Source: a virus. From it: a stretch of 64,000 bases of DNA. The position numbers were made by a program, and so were the translations under genes. Below are positions 19,895 to 24,639 of the stretch, piece by piece. Every line of letters begins with the position of its first letter. The first letter of the stretch is position 1. The stretch spans positions 1 to 64,000 of IMG/VR virus record IMGVR_UViG_3300008108_000057, one strand, 5' to 3'. The notes below the pieces were generated by a model. The model was not told where the DNA came from and searched no databases. It saw only the letters and a program-made list of their open reading frames with translations.

Positions 19895-21461
19895 ACATCA
19901 CAGAACTTCTACGTTGAAGTTTGTTTATGATATTTCCAATTGCATCATCACGAACAGGTGCAGCACCAGTTGCAGTACCAGCATCTTGACCACCTAAATT
20001 TATTCCATTTGTTGAACTCTTATTGATTATCATAGGTGCCGACTGTGTAAAATCCATGATCTCAGATTCTAGCTGCATATTTTGATCAGTAGCAGTTGCA
20101 ACAGGAGGTGCTGAAGGAACATTAGGCATTGCTGTAGACATGTCTGATGATGCTGAACCTGGTGTTGTTGCTGTAGATGCTGCTGGAGTTGATGCATCAC
20201 CAGCAGAAGATGTAATTGAACCTGCTGGTGAAGCTTCAGCACCTTTTGATGCTCCTGAAGGTACTGGTGTTGCAGATGAAGCAGTTTGTCCACTCATCCC
20301 ACCTGATGTTGCTCCTGAAGGTACTGGTGTTGCAGATGCTTGTTTTTCTTTTCTCTTTTTTATTTCAGCTTCAATGGCATCTAATTTTGCTGATTTTTCT
20401 TTGATATATGGAGAAGGATTAGATTTTAATTGAAATCTAGGATTTCCATATTGAAGAATGTCCTCACGCAAAGCATTTAATTCGGTTAATGTGGCAGAAG
20501 CAATATTACCTTTTTTATCTTTATTAAATTTATCAATTATTTTTTTTCTTGCTGCTTCTTTTTCTGGACTTTCTTTCATTGATTCGTATTCTGCTTCACC
20601 ACCATAACCACCACCAGCAGCCTGACCAGAGGATAAAGCTTTTTGCTGCTGAATTCCTGTCTTATCTCTATTTAACCATAGATCATAGACATATGCACCC
20701 AAGGCCGCCACAGTCAAAAGACCCAACAAAGCTATACCAACGGGACTTAATAGAAAAGCTCCAAGTCTTGCAATTAAACTTAAAAATCCAGTACCGAATG
20801 ATGTCATTATTGTTTTAGCCAAATTAATGAATGGATCTAAAAATTTCATTAGGTTTGTAAACATATCTTTGATATTTCCAAACATACTTCTAATGAAGTC
20901 TAAAAGTCCACCACCTTCTTTCTTTTCAACTGGTGTTGCTTTAGGTCTTGCACTACTAGTAATTGCTGCTAATAATTCTTTGAAACGGCGTTCATCTTCT
21001 AATGATTGTTCCTCTCTAAAGTTTTTTTCTACTTCCCTTCTCTTTGTCTCATCATCAATATTCTTTTTAAGTAGATTATAAATTTTTGCAAATACATCAG
21101 CAACACCTTCACTTTGTTTGACTGGTTGTAAAGAACCTGGACTGACTCTTGCAAAGAATGGATCATATGCTGCTTCACGACCTGCACCCTTTCTTGCAAA
21201 GTATTGAATGTCATCTGCACTTCTTCCCATCATTCTACCAAGAATTGCTGTACCAAGTTTTGTTCTACCAACAAGCATACTTGCAATATTCAAAGGATCG
21301 AATGCTTCTCGTATTCGTGTTCTCTTTGCAGCAAATTTTTGTGATACCGCCTTACCGACTGAACCAAACCCTCCACCTTCAGCAATATTTCTTGCTATTA
21401 AATCGGTAAGTGATATCTGACCAGTTCGTCTGGCTTGTCTATAATCTTGTGCTGTCGCCAT
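19893..21461 (-). CDS. Tape-measure-like tail protein, membrane-active segment
   Basis: 522 aa. Residues 115-168 form a charged helical module (starting KQSEGVADVFAKIYNLLKKN) that is clearly related to residues 86-138 of the preceding GH19 protein. A long apolar region at about 222-262 (FLSLIARLGAFLLSPVG and on) looks like membrane-crossing helices, as in tape measure proteins that are ejected into the host envelope. The C-terminus is Ser/Thr/Ala/Pro rich with a repeated SATPVPSGA unit. Size is near T4 gp29 (590 aa). Position, last after tube, gp26 and lysozyme genes, fits a tape measure or hub component. No sequence match to gp29 is claimed. Confidence 0.55.
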   Translation of the reverse strand: MATAQDYRQARRTGQISLTDLIARNIAEGGGFGSVGKAVSQKFAAKRTRIREAFDPLNIASMLVGRTKLGTAILGRMMGRSADDIQYFARKGAGREAAYDPFFARVSPGSLQPVKQSEGVADVFAKIYNLLKKNIDDETKRREVEKNFREEQSLEDERRFKELLAAITSSARPKATPVEKKEGGGLLDFIRSMFGNIKDMFTNLMKFLDPFINLAKTIMTSFGTGFLSLIARLGAFLLSPVGIALLGLLTVAALGAYVYDLWLNRDKTGIQQQKALSSGQAAGGGYGGEAEYESMKESPEKEAARKKIIDKFNKDKKGNIASATLTELNALREDILQYGNPRFQLKSNPSPYIKEKSAKLDAIEAEIKKRKEKQASATPVPSGATSGGMSGQTASSATPVPSGASKGAEASPAGSITSSAGDASTPAASTATTPGSASSDMSTAMPNVPSAPPVATATDQNMQLESEIMDFTQSAPMIINKSSTNGINLGGQDAGTATGAAPVRDDAIGNIINKLQRRSSVM

Positions 21462-23014
21462 TATGTTGCTGCTCCTCGTGCAAAGGTTGATGCGTCTGAT
21501 CTAGGTACCGTCATAGTTTTTGAATTGTCTGCTGAAGCTACTACGTTATTGGTTTGATTTACCACGACAGGTCCTCCTGCTGCGGCCGCTTGTTGTTTTT
21601 TTAGGTCTTTGTTTTCTGTAGATGTTTCAGCTAATCTTTTACCAGATGAACTAGTTGAACCTTCTGGTAAATTAGAAGAATATTTCTCAACTTTAGATAA
21701 TAGTTCTGCACCATATCCTTTTGATAAATTTAATCCTCTTCCACCAATAGTTTGTGTTACTTCTCTATTTGCTTCAGATTGATTTTTAAATGAATTTATT
21801 TTATTTTTTCCTAATCCATCTCTGACAAAAACAATTGCAGCTCTAGCAGCAATCTGAGGATCGTTTAATTTTTCAGGATTACTTACCAAATCAATTCCAA
21901 GTTTTTTTCCTAACTCTCTATAATTATTTTTTCCGGTTACTTGTATAAATCCTCTACCAAGATATTTGAACCCATCACCTTCTTCCGTATTACCCATTGA
22001 TTTACCCATTTTAGTGTCTTTTCCATATACCATTTCGGCAAATTTATATGGGTCTTTCTTAATTTGATTTAATTCCTCATCAGAATATTTGTTTGCTCTT
22101 GCAGTAAATATTTCTCTAATTCTTTTATTACTAGTATTTGCATATGCCTTTAAATTCTCAGATTGAGGCACAAAATTAGATTCTTTTTGAATATTTGCTA
22201 AAATAGCCTTCTTTGCATATTCATTGGTTACTCCCAACTCATCTGCTTGAGCATTTACCATTCCAATTACTCCAGCAGCTCCAATTCCTATTTTTGCTGC
22301 TGTTGGTATTGCAGCACTGGGAACAGAAGAAGGTGCTGAGGGAGTAGGTCCTTTAGGCGCAGGTGTTGCTGAGGGAGTAGGTCCTTTAGGCGCAGGTGTT
22401 GCTGAGGGAGTAGGTCCTTTAGGTGCCGCTGCCGTTGGTGGTTGAGCACCAGGTGATGGTTTTGCACCTTTTGGGATTTCAGGTTTTTCTATTCCTTTTC
22501 CTTTAGGTGTTTCTTTTTTCAAATCTTGTATTTCTTTTTTTGTTTTGTCTGATTCTTTTTTAATTTTCTTAGTTTCTTTTTTCAGACCTTTTGGTTGTTT
22601 AGTTAAAGCCTCAATCAATTGTTGATTTCTTTTCTCTTTTACTTCATTGAAAGATTTTGCAAAGTTTTCTTCTATTTGAAGTTCTTTTTTCTTCTTTTCT
22701 TCGTTTCGTCTTATTAAACCATATAACTTACCAGCAATGTCTGTGATAGATTCGCCTTTCTGTGGAGGTACATCTGCTCTGGCAACTTTTGATACAAACT
22801 TAGGATCTTTTTTCTTGCTATCTTTTAATCCTTTTCTCATACCACCTTTTGTTCCAGCATAGTTATCGGTAGCAGATTTTTTTCTACCAAATATTCCCGA
22901 CACCAAATTAAAAGGATTGAGATTACTCATCAATCCTCTTGTATTGTTCTGCATTGTTTCTGATGGTTCTGGTCTGTTATTACCACCACCCAACAGACTT
23001 CCTAATATACTCAT
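21461..23014 (-). CDS. Tail-associated GH19 lysozyme / tape-measure-like protein
   Basis: 517 aa. N-terminal module shared with the following gene, then a Lys/Glu-rich coiled coil (about 100-170), a Pro-rich linker with three APKGPTPSAT-type repeats (197-228), and a GH19 chitinase/lysozyme domain (about 255-445). GH19 marks: Glu278 in QKESNF, Glu344/345 before YLGRGFIQVTGKNNY (351-365), and NPEKLNDPQIAA. It probably opens the peptidoglycan during DNA entry. The gp5 relative in this phage lacks a lysozyme domain, so this is its likely replacement. Its ATG overlaps the stop of the gp26 frameshift frame (ATGA); its stop overlaps the next start. Confidence 0.75.
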   Translation of the reverse strand: MSILGSLLGGGNNRPEPSETMQNNTRGLMSNLNPFNLVSGIFGRKKSATDNYAGTKGGMRKGLKDSKKKDPKFVSKVARADVPPQKGESITDIAGKLYGLIRRNEEKKKKELQIEENFAKSFNEVKEKRNQQLIEALTKQPKGLKKETKKIKKESDKTKKEIQDLKKETPKGKGIEKPEIPKGAKPSPGAQPPTAAAPKGPTPSATPAPKGPTPSATPAPKGPTPSAPSSVPSAAIPTAAKIGIGAAGVIGMVNAQADELGVTNEYAKKAILANIQKESNFVPQSENLKAYANTSNKRIREIFTARANKYSDEELNQIKKDPYKFAEMVYGKDTKMGKSMGNTEEGDGFKYLGRGFIQVTGKNNYRELGKKLGIDLVSNPEKLNDPQIAARAAIVFVRDGLGKNKINSFKNQSEANREVTQTIGGRGLNLSKGYGAELLSKVEKYSSNLPEGSTSSSGKRLAETSTENKDLKKQQAAAAGGPVVVNQTNNVVASADNSKTMTVPRSDASTFARGAAT

Positions 23015-23217
23015 CTACTTGTTCTCTGCGATTGTTTTTGTTTTATTTTTTCATTTTCTTCTTCCAAATAACGAATCAACATATTGACATAAACATCTCT
23101 CTCCCATGGCAGCATATTCTCAATTTCTGCAAGACTATATTTGTGGTGCTGTATTAAAGCAAAGTTAGTCTTGTAGTAGTTCTGCAATGTATCATGACGA
23201 AAACTTACACGAAAAAA
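23011..23217 (-). CDS. -1 frameshift extension of gp26 (66 residues)
   Basis: After the slippery site the -1 frame reads RVSFRHDTLQNYYKTNFALI, then QHHKYSLAEIENMLPWERD and a Glu/Lys-rich tail, ending in TGA that overlaps the next ATG. The frame has no ATG before codon 33 of the extension and no ribosome site, yet its coding character is clear and it fills the gap exactly. Read through the frameshift it would give a 306-aa gp26 fusion. The HHKYSLAEIENMLPWE pattern resembles the extensions of tail-assembly chaperones (P2 E', lambda T). A separately started small protein (TTG in the frame) is the alternative. Confidence 0.7.
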   Translation of the reverse strand, partial: FFRVSFRHDTLQNYYKTNFALIQHHKYSLAEIENMLPWERDVYVNMLIRYLEEENEKIKQKQSQRTSR

Positions 23218-23930
23218 TTGTTGAGTCCTTCAATCTCTAGTTTATGTTCGTAACCACATTTGTTACATGTAAAGTCAACAGTCTTTTCTAGTTTTGGTAA
23301 GTTATTGAAAAATTCTTCTAATCTACTGAATTGTTGTTGATTTAATGAATCTACAAACTCTAACAATTCTTTTGGATCTGCTTCTTTTGCATAATAGAAC
23401 TGTTCACCATCATGAATATATTCAATACTATCTGCAATCATTTTTAAAGCAAACTCAGAAATATCTGTAGTGTTCCTTGTTTCTTTTACAATAGAGAACT
23501 CAGGATACTTTAGTTTAACTGTTATATTCTCTGTCAGTTTAATCGTATCTGATATTCCTTCAGGTTTATCAACTTTAATATCCAATAGATTAATATTGAC
23601 TTCCATGATGTTGCCACATTCTTTTCCTTCAACTTCATTGTTACAGCGGTATTTGTTTTCTGCAATCTCACCCACAGACCTTGCTCTCAAGTTTAAAAAA
23701 TAAAACTCAATGTCTGTGATAGGAAGTTTGTCTATGTCAATATCTTCAGTCAAAGTACAATTGTGTAACACTTGACGAATATTCTGTTCTATAGCACTTT
23801 CATCACTTGCTTCAAGTGCCATTAGCAAGTTTCTTTGTTCTTTAACTAGAAATGGTCTGAAACGAATGTGTTTTCCAGACAAAGGCAAATCAAGTTCATA
23901 AATCGGTGTATCTATTTTTGGCAAAGCCAT
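23205..23930 (-). CDS. 26: gp26-like baseplate/tail assembly protein (T4_baseplate family)
   Basis: 241 aa. The pattern KIDTPIYELDLPLSGKHIRF, RPFLVKEQRNLLMALE, LPITDIEFYFLNLRARSVGE and a four-Cys segment (YRCNN, KECGN) with a second CNKCGY near the end match the gp26/PF12322 family; T4 gp26 is 208 aa. The Cys pairs suggest a zinc site. GGAG precedes the ATG on the minus strand. The gene ends NNFFV, and the FF codons with the preceding T make a U UUU UUC heptamer, so part of the product is probably extended by frameshifting. It lies upstream of the tape-measure-like genes, the place of the tail chaperones in other phages. Confidence 0.8.
   Translation of the reverse strand: MALPKIDTPIYELDLPLSGKHIRFRPFLVKEQRNLLMALEASDESAIEQNIRQVLHNCTLTEDIDIDKLPITDIEFYFLNLRARSVGEIAENKYRCNNEVEGKECGNIMEVNINLLDIKVDKPEGISDTIKLTENITVKLKYPEFSIVKETRNTTDISEFALKMIADSIEYIHDGEQFYYAKEADPKELLEFVDSLNQQQFSRLEEFFNNLPKLEKTVDFTCNKCGYEHKLEIEGLNNFFV
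23211..23217 (-). other. Programmed -1 ribosomal frameshift site U UUU UUC
   Basis: The heptamer T-TTT-TTC lies two codons before the gp26 stop in the correct reading phase for a -1 slip. A Shine-Dalgarno-like GAAGGA is 8 bases upstream, comparable to the stimulator in dnaX. No strong downstream hairpin is visible. Confidence 0.7.
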
Positions 23931-23949
23931 AACAATCTCCTATAATATA

Positions 23950-24639
23950 TTAAGTCTTAAATCCTTGAGCAACTGAAGTCATATCATAAATCTTCCCTGA
24001 TGTACTGCTATTGAAAGGATTGTATGAAGTTCCGCCAGCATATTTCGTTAACGCACTTGTTGCCATGTCAACAGCGGTTTCAACACCAGCATTAATAAGA
24101 TTCTCTGCAAATGCTGCAATAGAATTGTTTTCCCAAGTGTAATAAGCAAAAGTCACAGCAAGTTTATGATGTGAATTCTCATTACTCCAATCTAAATCCA
24201 ATTGATTAATTGAAATCGGAAAAGCATCAACTAAAGTAATTGAGTATGAAAGTTGATTTTTTACGTTATATTGATTTACAGTAATTGGTGTAACATAACT
24301 TTGTCTATAATTGAAGTCATATGTTGTTCTTGGATTGATTAGATTCATCCAAGCATCAAACAGTTTCTTTTCACTCATATCATCACTTACCATAAAAGTC
24401 ATTGTTGTATCATTGTAGGTTGTGAGATATGGAAGTTTTTCTGTTGGACCATAAATCTTTCTTTCTGCTGTTGCTAGTGTCTTGCTTGGCAACTCTGCAT
24501 TTTCACATCTTAATTTTATTTGCCTTCCCGTGTTTAAGTATGCCACAAGTTTAAGTGGAATTGCAATTTCCACATCAAATCTGGCTGGTCTGGCTAAGTC
24601 AGTTTTGAAACTTGCCTTAAATTCGTTTAATGATGGCAT
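23950..24639 (-). CDS. Tail-tube-fold protein (gp19/gp54 family)
   Basis: 229 aa. The pattern ARFDVEIAIP, LRCENAELPSKTLATAERKI and MTFMVSDDMSEKKLFDAWMN, INPRTTYDFNYRQSY is typical of the T4 tail tube group (gp19 and its baseplate relatives gp54/gp48). The position before gp26 and the tape-measure-like genes, and the presence of a separate gp48-like gene nearby, favour a tube-initiator (gp54) role, but a tube protein cannot be excluded. It starts directly at the previous stop and has AGGA upstream. Confidence 0.65.
   Translation of the reverse strand: MPSLNEFKASFKTDLARPARFDVEIAIPLKLVAYLNTGRQIKLRCENAELPSKTLATAERKIYGPTEKLPYLTTYNDTTMTFMVSDDMSEKKLFDAWMNLINPRTTYDFNYRQSYVTPITVNQYNVKNQLSYSITLVDAFPISINQLDLDWSNENSHHKLAVTFAYYTWENNSIAAFAENLINAGVETAVDMATSALTKYAGGTSYNPFNSSTSGKIYDMTSVAQGFKT

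Follow-up and report, generated by a model that had tools for sequence, protein, structure and literature searches.

Does the gp26 gene of this virus make one protein or two? In the window, a stretch of 64,000 nucleotides of viral DNA (positions 1 to 64,000 of IMG/VR record IMGVR_UViG_3300008108_000057), gp26 ends just after a run of T bases at which the -1 frame is open and continues well past the gp26 stop codon. The reading we favor, with a probability of about 0.93, is that gp26 and the extension in the -1 frame constitute a single tail assembly chaperone gene with two products, made through a predicted -1 slip on the heptamer T_TTT_TTC. Most ribosomes would stop after the Phe-Phe-Val that closes the gp26 frame, releasing a short form of 241 amino acids (aa). 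A minority would slip back one base on the heptamer and read 66 more codons; their product, of 306 aa, would be the long form and would correspond to T4 gp51. If the two products act as gpG and gpGT do in lambda, the tape measure protein would be coated by the short part, and the C-terminal extension would bring in subunits of the tail tube or hub. That the slip occurs, how efficient it is and what the two products bind are what we infer, and the lambda roles are applied to this phage by analogy.

Anatomy of the Locus

All features of the locus lie on the minus strand. The gp26 open reading frame (23205..23930) encodes the short form, which matches PF12322 (T4_baseplate) at E 2e-60 (204.6 bits against a cut-off of 24.5) and phrog_150 at E 8e-66. 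Its 3' end reads GAA GGA CTC AAC AAT TTT TTC GTG TAA, with the slippery heptamer TTTTTTC at 23211..23217 and, 8 nt upstream of it, the Shine-Dalgarno (SD)-like GAAGGA at 23226..23231, a possible stimulator. The -1 frame is open from 23211, the last C of the heptamer, and the extension (23011..23211; 66 codons plus TGA) translates as RVSFRHDTLQNYYKTNFALIQHHKYSLAEIENMLPWERDVYVNMLIRYLEEENEKIKQKQSQRTSR. Its stop codon, TGA at 23013-23011, overlaps the ATG at 23014 of the next gene in an ATGA. The preliminary description of this DNA, which had proposed the frameshift, placed the heptamer, the GAAGGA, the open frame and the overlap correctly, and translation of the predicted fusion product gp26-51 (23011..23930) does give the 306 aa that it foresaw. 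It was also right that the extension has no ATG near its beginning: the first lies no earlier than codon 32, and none is found ahead of the conserved core. The only earlier near-start, TTG 23187, has no SD site, with a pairing of -0.7 kcal/mol as against -7.3 kcal/mol at the start of gp26 itself.

The neighboring genes bear on the lambda-like order V-G-GT-H suggested for the region. A gp19-like tail tube gene (23950..24639; phrog_45, E 1e-38; PF06841, 1.5e-05) lies directly upstream of gp26, as that order has it, whereas the tape measure candidates downstream are assigned from position and resemblance only. The gene that shares the ATGA overlap (21461..23014; 517 aa) had been called a tail lysozyme. 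The overlap stands; the open reading frame carries a GH19 (chitinase-class) domain and matches endolysin families, which does not establish a tail lysozyme of the T4 gp5 type. Ahead of the GH19 domain, this protein has tandem GPTPSATPAPK repeats within a stretch rich in Pro, Ala and Lys.

Within the window, the number of T TTT TTC heptamers is not significant (33 copies, with 28 +/- 6 expected in such AT-rich DNA), and a stop-free run as long as the extension arises with p about 0.003 in base-shuffled sequence. The heptamer alone is thus unremarkable and the length of the open frame moderately unlikely, so the case rests on comparison with relatives. Judged on sequence, conservation across these relatives lifts the observation far beyond chance.

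Conservation of the Slippery Site

Searching IMG/VR with gp26 yielded 80 loci; the comparison also included the cyanophages P-SSM2 and S-H9-1, at about 40% identity. In every locus with a readable gp26 3' end, T_TTT_TTC lies directly before the end of the gene and the -1 frame is open beyond it. Alignment of related gp26 genes had been put forward as a check on the frameshift, and relatives that lack the heptamer as evidence against it; heptamer and frame are present in 42/42 dereplicated representatives, which share <90% DNA identity with each other. The codon that precedes the two Phe codons varies in these 42 relatives (AGT, AAT, TCT, GGT or GCT, for Ser, Asn, Gly or Ala) and always ends in T. 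Elsewhere in the same genes the Phe codons are mixed (TTT 367, TTC 127), so TTT TTC would be expected in about 19% of Phe-Phe pairs. In nearly every locus, the +1 frame after gp26 runs into a stop after only a few codons.

A second search used the extension alone as query, so that its 80 loci were not selected on gp26, though some contigs are common to both sets. TTTTTTC is present in 77 of the 80, TTTTTTT and TTTTTTA occur once each, and one locus has a truncated gp26. That locus, L146 (1-700), was considered as an extension without a heptamer and rejected as such: its gp26 has lost about 75 codons from the C-terminal end and runs directly into the extension, which probably reflects a natural deletion or an assembly artefact.

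Kinship with T4 gp26 and gp51

What is the extension? It matches phrog_634, labeled “baseplate hub assembly catalyst”, at E 7e-29, and also the C-terminal positions 235-276 of phrog_150, the family whose N-terminal part corresponds to gp26. One family, phrog_150, therefore covers gp26 and the extension in that order, and T4 gp51 matches it end to end. When the 306-aa fusion is aligned with the T4 gp51 family, hhalign returns E 1.4e-16 over 229 columns (20-285 to 12-244), an alignment that runs across the junction with no gap there. By these sequence matches, the extension is the equivalent of the small cyanophage “gp51 / baseplate hub assembly catalyst” and of the C-terminus of T4 gp51. The gp26 part of the fusion aligns with T4 gp26 at E 3.9e-15, and T4 gp26 and T4 gp51 are paralogues. 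Together, these alignments indicate that T4 uses two genes for the short and long forms where this phage would use one. T4 gp26 provides a natural control: it ends GAG TTC TTT GAG TTA CTA TAA, with neither the heptamer nor a -1 open reading frame, as expected of a phage that has a separate long gene 51. No second gene for a long form was found in the 163,380-base record, which may be incomplete; it holds a single PF12322 match and a single phrog_634 match. Searches of NCBIfam and of PDB sequences returned nothing useful.

Predicted structure points the same way as the T4 gp51 colinearity. The two best structural matches of an AlphaFold2 model of gp26 (mean pLDDT 85) are to its N-terminal 95 residues: 3FGX (Z 6.6, 3.6 A over 86 residues) and 5IR0 (Z 5.2, 3.6 A over 78), with the next match at 2.7 and all Z values <8. 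Both are solved structures and have been described as tail assembly chaperones (3FGX in PMC9603447, 5IR0 in PMC12987554). The HK97 chaperone 2OB9 is listed at Z 3.7 for a model of the T4 gp51 type, and plain Foldseek with the gp26 model gave no significant match. Given such modest Z values, the structural matches are support for a chaperone fold, such as that of HK97 gp13 and YqbN type proteins, and not proof of it. The assignment of gp26 as a tail assembly chaperone, a counterpart already proposed in the preliminary description, is thus supported by its colinearity with T4 gp51 and by the resemblance of its model to known chaperones. The predicted fold of gp26 residues 5-95 resembles 5IR0, a chaperone of the Vibrio phage satellite PLE, a modeled likeness hinting that satellites and T4-like phages may share an N-terminal chaperone fold.

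The Junction in Other Lineages

Homologues of gp26 occur in 1,595 phage records, and the junction was read in 17 named phages besides T4 and phiAS4. The heptamer T_TTT_TTC is kept in KVP40, S-CRM01, S-N03, syn9, S-PM2, MED4-213, Mosig, Astolliot and Mendera; phiM9 and RHph_Y68 have TTTTTTG, and Melnitz and phiM12 have TTTTTTT. Vibrio phage K483 (L097, CTT TTC) and the Salmonella phage (Kuttervirus) STML-13-1 (L098, ATT TTC) keep the -1 open reading frame with no X_XXY_YYZ heptamer, so that any shift of frame in these two phages would depend on a non-canonical slip or on some other mechanism. In KVP40, S-CRM01, phiM9, RHph_Y68, Mendera and phiM12, all of which keep a T-run slip site, the gp26 stop codon is part of a TAATG or TGATG; in these phages a separate small gp51 could be made by reinitiation alongside frameshifting. 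Across the loci, overlaps of this type with an ATG in the -1 frame at the gp26 stop were noted in L084, L086, L087, L089, L090, L097 and L099. The public annotation of L082, L088, L091, L093 and L094 omits the extension or uses an internal start, at the cost of conserved N-terminal residues.

How Ribosomes Would Reach the Extension

Could the extension be a gene of its own? In that case it would be a small gp51, as in cyanophage annotation, read either by termination-reinitiation or from a start that it carries itself, and databases do annotate two genes in P-SSM2, S-PM2, KVP40 and others. The overlapping stop and start codons of several distant relatives are in keeping with such an arrangement. 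The pattern of selection in the window's own clade is not. The extension as a whole has a dN/dS of about 0.10, as against 0.195 for gp26. Codons 3-17 after the slip, which lie past the gp26 stop, before residue 18 and upstream of any conserved start codon, have a dN/dS of 0.08 in the -1 frame, while the values for the remaining two frames are 1.32 and 0.83. Over codons 0-17 of the extension, only 3/39 loci of the clade have an ATG and 13/39 any of ATG, GTG or TTG. Purifying selection on a segment with no conserved start suggests that ribosomes would enter the -1 frame from gp26, and the simplest reading of these sequences is that translation of the extension begins upstream, via gp26. A start of its own, which the preliminary description named as a finding that would tell against a frameshift, is thus not conserved in the clade, although in some more distant phages an ATG does overlap the stop of gp26, with the T-run site kept as well.

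A separate gene also leaves the invariant heptamer unexplained, together with the gap-free match to T4 gp51 at the junction. Its one candidate start in this phage is the TTG that lacks an SD, and in Mosig, Melnitz, syn9 and MED4-213 the extension is annotated from starts that exclude conserved residues further upstream. We therefore consider a separate gene very improbable for this phage. Slippage of RNA polymerase on the T6 run, which would yield the same long protein, seems to us slightly less probable still, for while the signal is a homopolymer run that reads TTTTTTT or TTTTTTA at two loci and reaches T7 in Melnitz and phiM12, it otherwise consists of exactly six T and then a C, in the phase T_TTT_TTC of the tandem-slip pattern, and longer runs are generally needed for productive transcriptional slippage in bacteria.

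Possible Frameshift Stimulators

If ribosomes slip on the heptamer, is the slip stimulated? An SD-like stimulator of the dnaX type had been proposed, and the GAAGGA is indeed present 8 bases upstream. By the median of the set, about 97% of windows in gp26 pair less well with the anti-SD than does the sequence upstream of the heptamer, which places that sequence in the best 3%. However, GAAGGA encodes a conserved Glu-Gly, and synonymous change at its Gly codon is less constrained than the average. The element follows from conserved codons under no extra synonymous constraint, which gives no support for a separately selected SD, and its candidacy as an independently selected signal was rejected on that ground. 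RNAalifold detected no conserved structure in the RNA downstream. In stimulated frameshifting of the dnaX type an SD lies upstream and a stem-loop downstream; any likeness of this locus to that type would rest on the SD-like pairing.

It is tempting to extend the frameshift reading beyond this phage. In most of the T4-like superfamily, one invariant heptamer with no detectable RNA structure may set the ratio of short to long chaperone; T4 would have swapped it for the duplicated, separated genes 26 and 51, while lineages like K483 and the Kutterviruses would keep the -1 open reading frame with a non-canonical slip or other mechanism. We offer this tentatively, as a proposal with somewhat less than even odds.

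Relation to Known Systems

Among the closest known systems is lambda gpG/gpGT: a -1 slip toward the 3' end of a single gene, near the one for the tail tube, yields both a short and a long chaperone. The slip site here is instead T_TTT_TTC, and gp26, which is the larger protein, has cysteine pairs of the CxxC type. The roles of the lambda products are taken from a 2016 review, according to which neither is present in the virion and the tail chaperone frameshift is conserved in long-tailed phages, T4 excepted (PMC5009743). A second such system is the pair of hub assembly chaperones gp26 and gp51 of T4, homologous over their whole length to the short form and to the long form including the extension, respectively. 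Gp51 is essential in T4 and absent from the particle (PMC3004832). Unlike in the window, the short and long forms of T4 and phiAS4 are encoded by separate, divergently transcribed genes. Some T4-like phages have one short gene and one long fused gene (PMC10885494).

Slippage at polyT sites has precedents. In the Vandenendeviridae phage Adele, a -1 frameshift at a polyT site gives TAC-N and TAC-NC, although that phage belongs to another family and its motif is GTTTTT; polyT frameshift signals were already known in T4-like TAC-N genes (PMC12846349). The cyanophages P-SSM2, S-PM2, syn9 and S-H9-1 share the heptamer, the frame and the extension with this phage, but their gp26 has only about 40% identity to that of the window, and they are annotated as two genes or with the extension omitted (S-H9-1).

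The title of a paper by Vladimirov, Gautam and Davidson (Virology 2022, 566:9-15) makes a case that T4-like phages use a mechanism other than frameshifting. Papers that cite these authors credit them with identifying T4-like chaperone genes and polyT slip sites (PMC12846349, PMC10885494), and one of them ties the non-frameshift mechanism to those phages whose short and long forms have a gene each (PMC10885494). With T4-like chaperones and polyT slip sites already known, the kind of system described here is not new. What is added is the depth of its conservation, the selection test on a start-less segment and the match to T4 gp51 that spans the junction.

Implications

Should the frameshift reading hold, the annotations “baseplate hub subunit” and “assembly catalyst” would become, in a large aquatic group of T4-like phages, those of one chaperone gene with two products. 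Phages with the heptamer and phages with split genes would then provide a clean comparative test of the role that the essential gp51 of T4 plays in hub and tail assembly.
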